Assembly (NCBI GenBank): GCA_005798775.1
Contig: SYIM01000303.1
Span: forward strand, 1-40,426
From: Burkholderiales bacterium
Lineage (GTDB): Bacteria > Pseudomonadota > Gammaproteobacteria > Burkholderiales > Burkholderiaceae_E
Reading direction: 5' to 3'
Length of the DNA stretch: 40,426 bases
Shown: piece after piece, positions 34,397-40,426 of the stretch
Numbering within the stretch: position 1 is the stretch's first letter
Layout of the letters: each line of letters starts with the position of its first letter
The notes under the pieces: model-generated
What the model was told of the DNA's origin: nothing
The model's database searches: none
What the model saw: the letters and a program-made list of their open reading frames with translations, nothing else
Translations under genes and position numbers: made by a program

Positions 34397-35923
34397 ATGA
34401 AGCTTCTGGCCATTGCTGTCGTCGCGCACGACGCCAACGCAGCCTATTTTGATGGTGACCGCGTTCACTACGTGAAGTTCGAACGGCCGCGACAGGAAAA
34501 GCGCTTCAGTTTTCAATCTCCCCCTGACTGGTACGCCGAGACCGAAGCGGTATTTGGGATGGACGTCTCCCAGATCGACCATATCGCGGTTACGTTTGAT
34601 CCGTCTGCACTTCCGGCTTCGGTGAGGCGTCATCTGTCGCCCGACGCGCTGCGACGCCTTGCATCGGGTCAGTCGCTCGCCGAACCGCTTGCGCCAGAGA
34701 TCTGCGCGTATCTGCGGGCGCCCTCTGCAACCTGGCTGAGCCATCATTTCTGTCATGCGCTGAGCGGCTGGATGATCGAGCCCACGCCGATTGCACTTCG
34801 ATTCGTGATCGATGGCTTAGGCGACGGAAGACCCTGGAGTGTGTACCGCGGCGGTAAGACGATCGCGGCTGGCGATATCCGTAACGGCTCGATCGGCTGG
34901 GGGATTCGCGAGGCGGGTAAGGCGCTGGGGATCAAGGCCGCGCACTTCAATGACATCGCCGGTAAGGTGATGGGGGTTCAGGCTTATGGCCGAATCGACG
35001 AAGGCTATCTCGACACGCTTCGCAAGCTCGAATTCGATCGCCTGGACGAAATCTGGTCATTACAAGGATGGTTGCGCTGGAAACATGATCCAACGATCGC
35101 CAGGCTCACGCTTCTCGACTGGGTGGCCACGGTCCACCATCGGACGGCGGAATGGTTAATCGATTTTTTCTCGAGTCATGCGCTGCCGTCCGAACCCGTT
35201 GTTTACTCTGGCGGAGTTGCGCAGAACGTTATCTGGAACTCGGCGTTGCGAAGCCACTTTCCAAACCTGTTTATCGCGCCGCATTGTTCCGATGAAGGGC
35301 TCAGCCTCGGCGCGCTCGAGTGGCTAAGACAGCGTCATGCCCTACCGCCGCTATCGTTTGCCGCCTTCCCGTTCGCCCAAGCCGATACCGATGTGCCGGC
35401 GCCCTCGGACGACACCGTCGAGGAAGTCGCGCAATTGCTCGCAGCGGGCAAGGTGATCGGCTGGTATCAGGGGCATGGCGAAATTGGCCCACGGGCGCTG
35501 GGTCATCGGTCCATTTTGATGGATCCCAGACTCGCGGATGGACGCGCCAGAATTGATCGTATCAAACGGCGCGAGCCGTTTCGGCCCTATGGCGCATCGG
35601 TACTCACTGAAGACTTCGGCCGGTATTTCGAGGGCTCGTCAGATCCCTTCATGCTCTATTCATGCAAGGTGGTTGGGCAGCCACTTCCAGCAATCCGGCA
35701 TATCGACGGCAGTTGCCGGGTGCAGCGCGTAGAGCGTAGCCCGCAGCCGTTGCGAGCGCTACTAGAGCGATTTCGAGCCCTGACAGGCTGCAGCGTTTTG
35801 CTCAACACCAGTCTGAATGTCGCGGGTAAGCCGCTCGCTGCGCACCCAAACCACGCTACGCAGCTTTTTTTGGAGTCGCCGCTCGATGCGGTCTGCGTCG
35901 GCAACGCGATTCACCGCCGCTGA
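34397..35923 (+). CDS. NodU/TobZ/CmcH-type O-carbamoyltransferase
   Basis: HHFCHALSGW, GKALGIKAAHFNDIAGKVMGVQAYGR, VVYSGGVAQNVIWNSAL, GWYQGHGEIGPRALGHRSILMDPR, EPFRPYGASVLTEDFGRYF, LLNTSLNVAGKPL. Confidence 0.92.
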   Translation: MKLLAIAVVAHDANAAYFDGDRVHYVKFERPRQEKRFSFQSPPDWYAETEAVFGMDVSQIDHIAVTFDPSALPASVRRHLSPDALRRLASGQSLAEPLAPEICAYLRAPSATWLSHHFCHALSGWMIEPTPIALRFVIDGLGDGRPWSVYRGGKTIAAGDIRNGSIGWGIREAGKALGIKAAHFNDIAGKVMGVQAYGRIDEGYLDTLRKLEFDRLDEIWSLQGWLRWKHDPTIARLTLLDWVATVHHRTAEWLIDFFSSHALPSEPVVYSGGVAQNVIWNSALRSHFPNLFIAPHCSDEGLSLGALEWLRQRHALPPLSFAAFPFAQADTDVPAPSDDTVEEVAQLLAAGKVIGWYQGHGEIGPRALGHRSILMDPRLADGRARIDRIKRREPFRPYGASVLTEDFGRYFEGSSDPFMLYSCKVVGQPLPAIRHIDGSCRVQRVERSPQPLRALLERFRALTGCSVLLNTSLNVAGKPLAAHPNHATQLFLESPLDAVCVGNAIHRR

Positions 35924-36453
35924 TCCGCTTGCATCGGGTTGATATCCGGGATCAGATTCAGGTTGAGCACCAGACGCGCCGAACAGTCTGTGCAGGAAGC
36001 ACCAGTGTGCCGAAGATTAGCGTTAAAGATCACCAATCGGTTGGCGGCGCTCGCAACGCGTGTCCCGTCTTCAAACAGCGTGTAGCCGTTATTGTCGTTC
36101 AGGTAATAAATCGCGGTCAGTGCATTGCGGTGCCGCGTATCGACATGAAGGCCGTACTCCAGATGGCGCGGCCGGCCCGGTGTCCGGTTGAGCTTGGCCT
36201 TGATCAGCCGCATGGGTCCGAACCAGCTTAGCACCGGCGCGATGACCGGCAGAAACGGGGAACGGTAAAGACTGCGGTTTCGCCACGCGTAGAAGCCGTG
36301 TACGAATTGCAGGTTGTCTTCAGAATCCAGCCCCGGAAACTTTCCCCGCAGGATTTCGCTTCGTTCCCATGGAAACGATTCGGACCGCACCGCCTCGAGG
36401 ATCCCTTGCAGGGCCTCGGGGCTCAACAGCGCATCAATGATTCTTAGAGTCAT
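35911..36453 (-). CDS. Putative 2-oxoglutarate/Fe(II) oxygenase
   Basis: LEYGLHVDTRHRNALTAIYYLNDNNGYTLFEDGTRVASAANRLVIFNANLRHTGASCTDCSARLVLNLNL: H-x-D, distal H and downstream R. Confidence 0.82.
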   Translation of the reverse strand: MTLRIIDALLSPEALQGILEAVRSESFPWERSEILRGKFPGLDSEDNLQFVHGFYAWRNRSLYRSPFLPVIAPVLSWFGPMRLIKAKLNRTPGRPRHLEYGLHVDTRHRNALTAIYYLNDNNGYTLFEDGTRVASAANRLVIFNANLRHTGASCTDCSARLVLNLNLIPDINPMQADQRR

Positions 36454-36531
36454 GAGCTTGGTGAATGCCGGTAGGGATTTAAGAAGGGCTGCGGGAATCG
36501 CCGGACGAAAAGTGCTGGGGCGGCAAATCGG

Positions 36532-36560
36532 TTGGCCAGACTCACAACGTTGGCTATAGT
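36532..36560 (+). promoter_or_regulatory. Candidate sigma70-like promoter for the first GNAT gene
   Basis: TTGGCC-17 nt-TATAGT in the divergent gap 36454-36637. Confidence 0.5.
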
Positions 36561-36637
36561 CTGCGCCTTAGCGCTCGCAGGGCGGGGAGTTTGGCACGCC
36601 GCACCGATGCGCTCCCATTCCGTGGCTCAAATCCCTG

Positions 36638-37456
36638 ATGAATGCACTTGTCGATTCAGTTGCCCCTGACCTGCGCGCCGTATCGGCGTGGGCGGCGCGG
36701 TTACGCCAGAGCGAGGGGGCTGAAGCGGCTTGCCTGGCACTGCAGTCGCTCTGCGAACGCTACCCAGCCAACGCCGCGCTGGCCGCGCTTTACGAGTGGA
36801 ACGACCCGCTCTGGTGGCACAGCTTCCATTTCGGAGCGATCCAGCTTGAGCGGCGGGGTCCCCAGCATTTTGATTTTGTATGGTCGGTCGTTCAGAACCG
36901 GGAGTTCGCGCGCAAGCTCAAACAGATTCCTGGTGAACTGACCCCTGCCGCCGTGCTGGACAACCTGGACCAGGACGCGATTTCACTCCTTTCCGAGCGC
37001 CACAACATCCAGTGGGTAGTTTTTCGCGGAGAGGTTCCGATCGGCCTTTCAATGTTCGTCAATATCAATTTCAGGAACCGGACGGCGGAGCAGATCATGG
37101 GTATTCTGCCGGGGTTCGATACATCGTTTTTGGTGGGCGATGCGTACTGCGCAAGTCTGCTGTTCGCGTTTAATTGCTTAGGCCTGAACAAGGTTCAGGG
37201 GCTGATTTATTCCAGCAATGAATCGATCGCACTCCAGCAGGAGCGCCTGGGTTTCCGGCGCGAGGGGCTCCTGCGCAAAGCCATCTGGGATGAGGAAACC
37301 AACCAGTACAAAGATCTGGTTCAGATTGCGCTGTTAAGAGAAGAGTTTGTCACGAACCGGGTTCTGCAGCGCCATATTCGCCGACAGCCGCACGCTCCGC
37401 TCCTCGATCGCTTCAGGAGCTTTGCCCGCCCGCCCCTGAAGCCAACTCCGGGATAA
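36638..37456 (+). CDS. GNAT-family acetyltransferase, paralogue 1 (272 aa)
   Basis: WVVFRGEVPIGLSMFVNINFRNRTAEQIMGILPGFDTSFLVGDAYCASLLFAFNCLGLNKVQGLIYSSNESIALQQERLGFRREGLLRKAIWDEETNQYKDLVQIALLREEF. Confidence 0.83.
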   Translation: MNALVDSVAPDLRAVSAWAARLRQSEGAEAACLALQSLCERYPANAALAALYEWNDPLWWHSFHFGAIQLERRGPQHFDFVWSVVQNREFARKLKQIPGELTPAAVLDNLDQDAISLLSERHNIQWVVFRGEVPIGLSMFVNINFRNRTAEQIMGILPGFDTSFLVGDAYCASLLFAFNCLGLNKVQGLIYSSNESIALQQERLGFRREGLLRKAIWDEETNQYKDLVQIALLREEFVTNRVLQRHIRRQPHAPLLDRFRSFARPPLKPTPG

Positions 37457-38125
37457 AACGCGACAGGTAGCCCAGGGTGAGGTCGTGCGAGATGATGATG
37501 CGTTCTGACGTTCCGCGATGTAAAACCGAGTGCGGATAAGGCCCCCATCCTTGAACGCCAGGAGCTTGCCCTGTTTCCACGTGCGGGTTTCGTCCCCGAC
37601 CGTGATGCTGCAACCGGGGTCATCCTGAAGGCAAAGGTGGATGCGCAAAAATTCCGATGTCCATCCCCGATGCGGATGAATGATCGAGCCAGGAATCAGG
37701 CGGCTCACAAATACGTTTCGCAGGGCCCCTTGCTGCTCCAGCCCCGAAATCAAACCCGAAACACGTGGGAGCCTGCTGCGGAACATACGAACCAGCGGTT
37801 CGATATTCATCGACAGCTGCGACTTCGAGAGCTCGATATGCTCGCCTTGAAAGATCGACAGCGGAAATGCATCCCAGGTGTTGTCGTAGAGGCTGTCGAA
37901 ATGCGGGATCTTGTATTTCGGGTAAGGCATGAAGGGCCTGAACTTTGCAATGAAGCCCAGGATCTCCTGCCGGATAGCATCAGCCTGATTCTCGAGCTCA
38001 ACGCACCACGGCACGCGATGCAGCTCCTGGTGCCAAAAAGCCGGTTCGTTCACCGCTCGCGGCGCTTCAGGCGAGCGGGTACCCGACACCTGTCCGCTCG
38101 ACACCTTTTCATCAGGGTCAGTCAT
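37413..38125 (-). pseudogene. Aspartyl/asparaginyl beta-hydroxylase-like protein, frameshifted near 37540
   Basis: MTDPDEKV...SRLIPGSIIHPHRGWTSEFLRIHLCLQDDPGCSITVGDETRTWKQGKLLAFKDG in the frame of ORF 37334..38203, then the conserved C-terminus PYPHSVLHRGTSERIIISHDLTLGYLSRFIPEL continues in the frame of ORF 37413..37613. Confidence 0.78.
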
Positions 38126-38256
38126 ACAGTGGATGCGCGTGAATGTGCTGTGGCCTGCCAGCTTGCCGGATGCCGCCCAGGATCGCAACCACCTGCGGTC
38201 CACCGAGGGTAGTTCACAGCGTTTCCCCTAACATCGCTTAGGAAATAGAGGTTGCC

Positions 38257-38922
38257 ATGCCGGATGCCGGTACCGTTCCGGTCATATCGTTGAACGTGCT
38301 GAGCGCGGACGAGTGCGCGCGCTGGACAGCCGAGGTTCTTTCGCTGAAGTCACACTGGACCGCTCGCGACCCGGATCTGCCGTTTTTCACGCCGGGACTT
38401 GCGGCCTACTGTGACGCTTCGCCTGAAGAAGCCAATCCACCTTATCGGGTCGACTCGTATCGTCAATGGAACAATCGGCTCCTCGTTACACACTTCGGCG
38501 GCTTGCTTGAACAGTGCTGTCAGGCGCTCGCGTCGGCGACCGGGGTACCCGCCGTATGCCCTGGGGGCCACGCCGCAATTCCCGGGTTTCACATCCACTT
38601 GCCTCATCCGGTATTCGCCAATGACATTGCCAGCCAGCACGTTGATCTTCAGTTTCAACGCATTTTTGCGGCGACTGATCCCGATCCGGGCGAAGTCCTA
38701 ACCTTTACGCTCCCGGTTTCGATGCCCACCGGCGCTGCGCTTCGGATTTGGCATTCAGACCACCAGTCTTCGGTGTATCCCTACCAGCTCGGGAAAATGA
38801 CGATTCACAGCGGGTTGAGTCTGCATCAAGCCGTGATCAACCCGCATGGCGAGCCGGTTCCGCGGATCATGCTGCAGGGGCATGGATTACGCCTTGAAGC
38901 AAAGTGGAACTTGTATTGGTGA
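38257..38922 (+). CDS. Putative non-heme Fe(II) dioxygenase (2OG-like)
   Basis: GFHIHLPHPVFANDIASQHVDLQFQ...IHSGLSLHQAVINPHGEPVPRIMLQGHG: H-x-D, distal H, downstream R. Specific family not identified. Confidence 0.62.
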   Translation: MPDAGTVPVISLNVLSADECARWTAEVLSLKSHWTARDPDLPFFTPGLAAYCDASPEEANPPYRVDSYRQWNNRLLVTHFGGLLEQCCQALASATGVPAVCPGGHAAIPGFHIHLPHPVFANDIASQHVDLQFQRIFAATDPDPGEVLTFTLPVSMPTGAALRIWHSDHQSSVYPYQLGKMTIHSGLSLHQAVINPHGEPVPRIMLQGHGLRLEAKWNLYW

Positions 38923-38931
38923 CGGGCTCTG

Positions 38932-39750
38932 TCAGGCATGAAATTGCTTGAGCGGCTGACGCGGCCACTCGCGATACGTGTCGAGCCTCGCGTCATGACG
39001 ACGGCGCGCATGCCTTTGGATGGTCGGGTTAAGCAGGAATTCCTCGCGCAGTATCGAAAACACAACTAGATCTTCGTAGCGTTCACCCGACTCAGCCCAG
39101 ATCTCCTGTCTCAAGCGCGCCTCCTCTGCAAAGCCGAGGCGGCTTTGTAACCGAGCCGCGTGAGGGTTTGAGGTCAGCACGCGGCTTTGCACTTTGTTCA
39201 TGCCGAGGCAGTTGAAAGCAAACAGCAGACTTGCGCAGTAAGCGTCTGCAACCGACATCGAACGATCGTGGCCCGGCAACATGCCCATGATCAGTTCTGC
39301 GATTCGATACCGAAAATTGATGTTCACCAGCATTGCAAGCCCGGCTGGAACACCCCGCCTGTAGACGACCCAATGGATAGCGTTGGTCTCAGGGATAAGA
39401 CTCTGCTCGTCGGTCGTCAGTTTTTCGAGCAGGTCTTTTGGCGTGAGCGATTCCGGCAGCTGTTTGAGCTTGGAAGAAAAGTCCCGGTCAAGAACGATAG
39501 TCCAGACGAAGTCGAAGTGTTCCGAGGTTTGCCGCTCGAGCGTCATGCCGCCGAATACGACGGGCTGCCACCACACTTCATCATGCCAATCAGAAAGCTC
39601 GGAGATGGCTGCGTGACCGGGCTGCCGCCGTACAAGAGAGATAAGCGCCTCTCGCGCCGCCTTCACACCTTTCTGGCTGCGCAAGTGGCGGAGCCAGCCG
39701 ACAAGTTCGATCGGCTCCGGCGCTAGGCGGGTTGTGATGGAGAGCGTCAC
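38932..39750 (-). CDS. GNAT-family acetyltransferase, paralogue 2 (272 aa)
   Basis: WVVYRRGVPAGLAMLVNINFRYRIAELIMGMLPGHDRSMSVADAYCASLLFAFNCLGMNKVQ; same length and clearly homologous to 36638..37456. GTG start in a GTGA overlap with the upstream gene. Confidence 0.83.
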   Translation of the reverse strand: MTLSITTRLAPEPIELVGWLRHLRSQKGVKAAREALISLVRRQPGHAAISELSDWHDEVWWQPVVFGGMTLERQTSEHFDFVWTIVLDRDFSSKLKQLPESLTPKDLLEKLTTDEQSLIPETNAIHWVVYRRGVPAGLAMLVNINFRYRIAELIMGMLPGHDRSMSVADAYCASLLFAFNCLGMNKVQSRVLTSNPHAARLQSRLGFAEEARLRQEIWAESGERYEDLVVFSILREEFLLNPTIQRHARRRHDARLDTYREWPRQPLKQFHA

Positions 39751-39992
39751 AACTCGGCGGGTGGCGCGGGCTTGAGCGCAGTTTCAGGCGAAAGCCCGGC
39801 AACCGTCTCTCGCAACAATGAGCGGTCGAGCCGACGCCCAACCTCGTCGCGAGCGAGCTTCAGCATGTCGGCGCGCATCATGAGCCGCTCCAGCTCCGAA
39901 TCGACAAAGGCAAGATAACGGAGATGACCTTTGGATTCTTCGCCCAGGGTATCGAGCTCGTAGGCAAGGCCATTAATTTTGATGATCGGCAT
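39747..39992 (-). CDS. Small DUF6447-like protein (81 aa)
   Basis: MPIIKINGLAYELDTLGEESKGHLRYLAFVDSELERLMMRADMLKLARDEVGRRLDR; the 'INGxxYxLDxLxEExKxxLxxLxFVDxELxRL' pattern is recalled from DUF6447. Confidence 0.7.
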   Translation of the reverse strand: MPIIKINGLAYELDTLGEESKGHLRYLAFVDSELERLMMRADMLKLARDEVGRRLDRSLLRETVAGLSPETALKPAPPAEL

Positions 39993-40033: not shown

Positions 40034-40179
40034 GTCAGCTGGAGCCTATCGAACCGCAGGAGCTCGCGGGTAGGGTAACGATGCTGCCGGCGAGATCTTG
40101 CGTGCGGGCGCAACGCCAACACTATCGCGGGTTTTTAGACTTGTCCGGTTCTGTAGCACATGAATTGTCCGCTTTTTTT

Positions 40180-40234
40180 GTTGAGGGTGGCAATCGGCGC
40201 AGGGTGTAGCCCGGAGCCGATTGCCACCCTCAAC
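40180..40234. repeat. 19-bp perfect inverted repeat with 17-nt spacer
   Basis: GTTGAGGGTGGCAATCGGC (40180-40198) / GCCGATTGCCACCCTCAAC (40216-40234). Confidence 0.95.
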
Positions 40235-40253
40235 AGGGCGCCTGGCGGACGGC

Positions 40254-40426
40254 TCAGGCAGCCTGCTGCATCTCCTCGATAATGAGTTTGCCCTGCGGAG
40301 TGAAGTAAGCCAAGCCGCGCGGTCCGTGAAACAGCGCGATCGCCCCGCTGGCGTAGCGATTCACACGCACCCGCGCCTTCACGTAATGGCAGCGATGCCG
40401 ATCGGCCGGAATCTGCAGAATCATTC
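40254..40426 (-). mobile_element. 3' end of an ISNCY-like transposase gene; element continues past the right edge
   Basis: Reverse complement reads MILQIPADRHRCHYVKARVRVNRYASGAIALFHGPRGLAYFTPQGKLIIEEMQQAA*, resembling the C-terminus of ISNCY-family integrase-like transposases; repeated TTGTCCG motifs at 40141 and 40165 are consistent with an IS end. Confidence 0.7.

Follow-up and report, generated by a model that had tools for sequence, protein, structure and literature searches.

The window analysed here is the whole 40,426-nucleotide stretch of contig SYIM01000303.1 (NCBI GenBank assembly GCA_005798775.1, Burkholderiales bacterium), in which seven open reading frames (ORFs) lie together within 5.6 kb at positions 34,397–39,992. 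These ORFs, hereafter the block, encode a carbamoyltransferase (CT), three putative Fe(II)-dependent hydroxylases (OG1, ASPH and P5), two GNAT acyltransferases (GN1 and GN2) and a small protein (SM). A preliminary description drawn from the sequence had pointed to this co-location and proposed a candidate modification system; all seven ORFs were verified there, as follows:

34397..35923, + strand: CT, short phage-type O-carbamoyltransferase of 508 amino acids (aa) (Pfam Carbam_trans_C/N, PHROG_1601)
35911..36453, - strand: OG1, small Fe(II)/2-oxoglutarate (2OG) oxygenase, prolyl-hydroxylase-like (2OG-FeII_Oxy_3, PHROG_274)
36638..37456, + strand: GN1, GNAT acyltransferase of 272 aa with a short TPR-like N-terminus (Acetyltransf_3)
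37413..38125, - strand: ASPH, Asp/Asn beta-hydroxylase-like, frameshifted in the assembly (Asp_Arg_Hydrox, DNA alignment)
38257..38922, + strand: P5, third putative Fe(II)/2OG oxygenase, no Pfam family (motif, tblastn, AF2 model)
38932..39750, - strand: GN2, GNAT acyltransferase of 272 aa, paralogue of GN1 (Acetyltransf_3 slightly below cut-off)
39747..39992, - strand: SM, small protein of 81 aa, distant relative of DUF6447 (hhalign, AF2 model)

The genes are arranged in three tail-to-tail pairs on alternating strands, which indicates a conserved cluster and not one operon; OG1 overlaps the tail of CT by 13 bp, and SM overlaps GN2 by 4 bp. As had been stated, no non-ribosomal peptide synthetase or polyketide synthase (NRPS/PKS), glycosyltransferase or nod gene was recognised in the block, nor any nod gene among the scanned window neighbours.

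A CT profile scan of ~85,000 species genomes returned six loci, and the full order CT–OG1–GN1–ASPH–P5–GN2–SM recurs on the same strands at two others of these (L065 and L066) at 83–98% identity, giving seven-gene synteny in three species of one genus of lake bacteria (that of the window and two more). An adjoining pair of CT and OG1 was found in three further genomes: both genes are present as far as the contig end in L067, and in a Ramlibacter metagenome-assembled genome (MAG; L068) and a beta-proteobacterial MAG (L069) they are convergent, with ends abutting or overlapping, at 48–58% identity. Identity to the CT of the window is 93, 88, 81, 58 and 56% for L065 to L069, respectively. That at least three of the families should recur together, the test set by the preliminary description, is borne out by all seven in three species and by CT and OG1 in three more. 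Every block gene is under purifying selection (dN/dS 0.07–0.23, with dS ~0.2–0.6 across the three species), including ASPH, with a dN/dS of 0.07–0.09 over its first 195 codons. Given the same-order recurrence and this selection, the co-localisation is not due to chance, and the block looks, on comparison of these genomes, like a patchily distributed island that would be selected as a unit. Of five genomes examined in the genus, four have CT at 81–100% identity and one, a complete genome, lacks it; the genes to the left of CT are an ABC transporter (L065, L066), an alpha/beta hydrolase (window) or TctC-like and oxidoreductase-like genes (L067). In L069 (2249–5038), the genes next after CT and OG1 encode a further 2OG oxygenase (2OG-FeII_Oxy_3), an APS kinase and a JmjC_2 oxygenase. 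The right contig end of the window (40135–40426) holds an ORF fragment and an inverted repeat (~40180–40235) resembling a mobile element; the assembly may have broken at this repeat, hiding the right flank of the block.

Such patchiness invites the explanation that functionally unrelated, partly phage-derived genes merely travel together as a cargo island. The block has a GC content of 55–60%, against ~60–68% in the contig's first half (19 kb), its flanks vary among species, its strands alternate and CT is patchy, all of which would suit passive cargo; an exact seven-gene synteny maintained in three species at a dS of ~0.2–0.6, with every gene under purifying selection, would not. The pairing of CT with OG1, seen in other genera and next to some phage CTs, the pairing of ASPH with P5 in cyanophages, and the context shared by SM and TPR-GNAT relatives likewise speak against it, rendering the cargo explanation improbable.

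CT carries both domains of the O-carbamoyltransferase family, Carbam_trans_C and Carbam_trans_N (E=8e-50 and 4e-13; 169 and 50 bits against cut-offs of 27 and 24), supporting its initial reading as a carbamoyltransferase of NodU/TobZ type, albeit of a phage-type branch. Its full length matches PHROG_1601, ‘Nol-like carbamoyltransferase’ (E=1.5e-117), with 36–37% end-to-end identity to phage proteins and invariance with phage CTs of the motifs HHxxH (116–120), D139, D299 and G-P-R-A-L-G; matches in other genomes of the class are mostly longer (~570–650 aa), aligning best in the C-terminal half. The domain architecture and motifs are those of NodU, TobZ and GdmN, from which CT differs in its shortness and phage-type branching and in a setting that contains no nod, NRPS/PKS or aminoglycoside genes; against the NCBIfam NodU model (NF041651, cut-off 1000 bits) it scores 107.9 bits. 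A phage carbamoyltransferase that modifies 5-hydroxymethylcytosine (5hmC), identified by MetaGPA, is likewise an O-carbamoyltransferase using a partner-made hydroxyl, and its gene sits with thymidylate-synthase-type genes (PMC8670742). The partner there is a thymidylate-synthase homologue, whereas 2OG oxygenases accompany CT; no thymidylate synthase/dCMP hydroxymethylase-type gene was recognised in the block, the scanned window neighbours or the L065/L066 ORFs (the latter by eye).

Of the three hydroxylases, OG1 and P5 possess the HxD...H triad and distal Arg of Fe(II)/2OG oxygenases. In OG1, first described as prolyl-hydroxylase-like from its H-x-D...H...R pattern, H103-x-D105...H149...R160 is invariant across nine relatives, and the protein matches Pfam 2OG-FeII_Oxy_3 slightly above cut-off (E=6e-6) and PHROG_274 (E=3e-35). 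PHROG_274 bears the label ‘DNA endonuclease V’; the 2OG oxygenase motif is present in those OG1-type members that were tested, some phage records name these relatives 2OG oxygenase, and the label looks like a propagated mis-annotation. The suspected third dioxygenase, P5, was corroborated by a motif (H128-x-D130...H190...R203; HVD...H...R) invariant with cyanophage homologues, a tblastn match to phage P-HM2 (E=1e-16) and an AF2 model of moderate quality (mean pLDDT 66) whose Foldseek matches are the 2OG oxygenases WelO5, SadA and P4H. ASPH, first described as Asp/Asn beta-hydroxylase-like, has an Asp_Arg_Hydrox domain (PF05118) over cut-off (window ORF, E=1.7e-18; intact L065 protein, 5e-23), but the gene proved to be frameshifted here. 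DNA alignment places a single-base frameshift in a homopolymer run near 37,540–37,547, so that the 289-aa ORF runs out of frame in its C-terminal part, where the second Fe-ligand His is encoded; this His is in frame in L065 and L066, where the gene is intact. The shift is either an assembly error or a recent inactivation, and the ATG at 38,125 is the likely start.

The phage character of CT, the known 5hmC carbamoyltransferase (PMC8670742) and the endonuclease label on the PHROG of OG1 could together suggest a phage-derived modification of nucleic acids or nucleotides resembling 5hmC carbamoylation. With no thymidylate-synthase-type gene, TET/JBP match or methyltransferase seen in the block, and with OG1 matching a 2OG oxygenase Pfam model under an apparently erroneous label, such a function is very improbable.

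Among viral relatives, the 80 contigs that carry the nearest CTs have small 2OG oxygenases (2OG-FeII_Oxy_5 or _3 by Pfam) as 34% of genes at ≤500 bp and ~1–5% beyond 5 kb, as counted with a profile trained on genes within 2.5 kb of CT, which favours near matches somewhat. These flanking oxygenases lend weight to the suggestion that the carbamoyltransferase acts on hydroxyls produced by hydroxylases. An OG1-type relative lies within 1 kb of CT in eight of the 80 contigs; searching from the OG1 side, CT was found within 6 kb at 4/80 viral loci, and since OG1-type oxygenases are far commoner than CT, the pairing is visible from the CT side only. The cyanophage and pelagiphage CTs of PHROG_1601 and 2OG oxygenases of PHROG_274 and PHROG_81 are the closest families of CT and OG1 and adjoin in some phages, but no phage was found to carry the seven-gene block. 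ASPH is linked to P5 in viruses: at all 12 viral ASPH loci whose downstream DNA extends for at least 2.7 kb, ASPH is followed by a small Ig-like protein and then by P5 homologues; the intervening gene in P-HM2 is annotated ‘virion structural protein’ and matches I-set weakly (E=5e-4, below cut-off). A phage contig (L314, 207–8105) encodes several 2OG oxygenases, including an OG1 relative, followed by an SM-like protein (E=1e-4) and a protein of a tail-fibre-assembly family, and is a compact phage form of the same theme. OG1-profile matches in other Burkholderiales were weak, and their loci looked unrelated.

GN1 and GN2, recognised from the outset as homologous 272-aa GNATs, share 49–50% identity and both match Acetyltransf_3. 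Outside the genus, their closest relatives are TPR-GNAT fusions in most cases, with one 279-aa GN1/GN2-like form (L249); searches of phages and viral contigs found no GNAT relatives. At 5/5 loci of TPR-GNAT relatives, a Big_5, RTX or DUF4214 protein is encoded directly beside the gene; generic GNATs from the same order-wide search had such surface-protein relatives within 1.5 kb at none of 25 loci, a control that is only indicative because the surface-protein reference set came from the positive loci. HlyC is a cytosolic GNAT-like enzyme that acylates RTX proteins ahead of type I secretion, and GN1 and GN2 are comparable in being GNAT-type, with relatives beside type I secretion system (T1SS) or RTX substrates, and in presumably acting before secretion. 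They differ in lying outside the HlyC family, to which they have no match (a Pfam scan to E=1 returned Acetyltransf models and VirC1 alone), in having TPR-GNATs as relatives, in being accompanied by hydroxylases and a carbamoyltransferase, and in having putative substrates that look like surface or S-layer-type proteins.

SM was confirmed as an 81-aa protein, and its proposed likeness to DUF6447 holds as a distant relation reached through intermediates, without a direct Pfam match: neither SM nor any other protein of the window's genome matches PF20045 at its cut-off of 27 bits. Sub-cut-off PF20045 matches supplied three intermediates, and SM aligns with a DUF6447-like protein at 37% identity, gapless over the conserved part (hhalign probability 96%), differing in its longer C-terminus. 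A single-sequence search of 185 genomes of the class found SM in the window's alone, tblastn in phages gave chance matches alone, and Foldseek gave no significant match, with a weak ZapA lead. A combined SM and DUF6447-like profile run against 399 Burkholderiales genomes identified 11 genomes in nine genera (the window's and 10 others). Near these relatives and three DUF6447-like loci are encoded DUF4214 (7), SapC (4), TolC-type outer membrane efflux (OEP; 4), HlyD (4), T1SS-type ABC (3), RTX repeat (2) and CHASE2/cyclase (3) proteins and Crp regulators (3); the neighbours had been chosen by eye ahead of the Pfam scan, and the counts thus describe context and are no enrichment test, and one locus fetched (L215) gave no clear context. 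A dCache-cyclase adjoining SM in L066 is a regulator partly similar to the CHASE2/cyclase neighbours. At L217 (7040–8488), a DUF6447-like domain forms the C-terminus of a 483-aa ATP-grasp-like protein near DUF4214 proteins.

In the AF2 model (mean pLDDT 85), SM consists of a beta-hairpin and a long helix; this predicted fold and the context of its relatives favour an accessory or adaptor role over that of a carrier. A small conserved protein surrounded by many tailoring enzymes could also be taken for part of a peptide or metabolite pathway, in which SM would be a RiPP-like precursor or carrier acted on by the hydroxylases, CT and the GNATs. A hydroxylase with a carbamoyltransferase is a typical natural-product tailoring pair. 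SM is, however, among the most conserved block products, at 93–98% along its length with no obvious split into leader and core, it is predicted to form a hairpin and a long helix, its relatives adjoin T1SS and surface-protein genes, and the block has no peptidase, core synthase or peptide exporter; a peptide or metabolite pathway is accordingly given a low probability.

The explanation tentatively favoured, though somewhat short of probable, is that the block would act in the cytosol as a cassette dedicated to post-translational modification, its substrates being one or more large secreted surface proteins whose genes lie elsewhere in the genome. It is favoured because relatives of the block genes lie beside surface or repeat proteins in bacteria and beside fibre or Ig-like virion proteins in phages. 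Substrate classes considered were type I secreted RTX, DUF4214 or Ig-repeat, S-layer-like and adhesin-like proteins. At the level of genes, catalytic motifs, kept linkage, selection and the genomic context of relatives, the block is described by observation; we infer a substrate, an order of steps, a chemistry on protein and a role for SM as follows. OG1, ASPH and P5, using Fe(II), O2 and probably 2-oxoglutarate, would hydroxylate Pro, Asp/Asn or other C-H positions of the unfolded substrate before its secretion; CT, with ATP and carbamoyl phosphate, would O-carbamoylate the new or native hydroxyls; GN1 and GN2 might acylate further sites, functionally as HlyC does on RTX proteins; SM may serve as a small helical accessory binding the substrate or the enzymes; and the decorated protein would be exported and then displayed. 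The general idea of a modification system is thus supported by recurrence, selection and the context of relatives, whereas the small molecule, glycan or peptide first suggested as substrate gives way to protein as the better fit, the relatives adjoining genes of type I secreted, RTX, DUF4214 and Ig-like surface and virion proteins.

A serious, if unlikely, alternative takes as acceptor a glycan of the cell surface, either free or as part of a surface glycoprotein: CT would O-carbamoylate a sugar, the GNATs would add N-acyl groups to amino sugars, in the manner of PseH, and lipid or sugar parts would be oxidised by the hydroxylases. Sugars and small molecules are the substrates of the known O-carbamoyltransferases, among them the characterised bacterial relatives of CT (the NodU/TobZ chemistry), so that a glycan on a surface protein must be considered; the PDB matches of CT are TobZ, GdmN and the novobiocin carbamoyltransferase. 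Weak likenesses of GN1 and GN2 to PseH (E ~1e-6, below cut-off) and of ASPH to the lipid hydroxylases LpxO and OlsC point the same way, as does one DUF6447-like locus with a TPR-GT41 and another glycosyltransferase-like gene nearby. At the full-block loci, however, no glycosyltransferase or nucleotide-sugar gene lies in or adjoins the block, three hydroxylases are unusual for glycan tailoring, and the relatives of SM and the TPR-GNATs adjoin surface-protein genes.

In the window's genome, other contigs encode RTX proteins, one of them (3,016 aa) adjoining a TolC-HlyD-ABC type gene set, and in the Ramlibacter MAG the large gene nearest to CT and OG1 codes for a protein of >2,107 aa and LEPR type, a reading of its N-terminal sequence to which Pfam assigns no family. 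Several points nevertheless weigh against a surface-protein cassette. This giant neighbour is a single instance, and as far as the L065 and L066 flanks are available, the ~10 kb around the full block contain neither a giant surface-protein gene nor any secreted substrate or TolC-HlyD-ABC set. RTX genes are also plentiful in a related genome that has no CT (G455), so their presence does not discriminate, and DUF4214 was found nowhere in the genus and is therefore not available there as a substrate domain. The viral ASPH–P5 loci stem from one broad cyanophage lineage (ASPH 58–100% identical) and do not represent independent events, the relation of SM to DUF6447 is, judged by profile alignment, remote, and protein and glycan acceptors are indistinguishable by domain searches. 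An ORF of at least 2,478 aa that lies ~10 kb to the right of the block in a related lake bacterium (L256:12565–19998; G456:C7) was rejected as a substrate, its sole Pfam match being a ubiquitin carboxyl-terminal hydrolase.

Enzymes dedicated to the maturation of secreted proteins are known as a general kind, and at system level the block corresponds to none of NodU, 5hmC carbamoylation, HlyC or DUF6447. We know of no description of protein O-carbamoylation on enzymatically made hydroxyls; the gene combination of the block was not found in the literature searched, and no paper on ‘DUF6447’ or ‘Nol-like carbamoyltransferase’ was found in the library searched. A wider extension, conceivable yet doubtful, is a modification shared by bacteria and phages, in which 2OG oxygenases and CT would hydroxylate and O-carbamoylate Ig-like or RTX-type surface or fibre proteins with a DUF6447-like adaptor. 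The small 2OG oxygenases of marine phages have been explained earlier through 2OG metabolism or DNA repair (PMC3037559). If the proposal holds, these oxygenases, the ‘Nol-like’ phage carbamoyltransferases and the DUF6447-like proteins would gain a common function, the decoration of secreted repeat proteins and of phage fibres, with a possible bearing on adhesion, phage–host recognition and S-layers.

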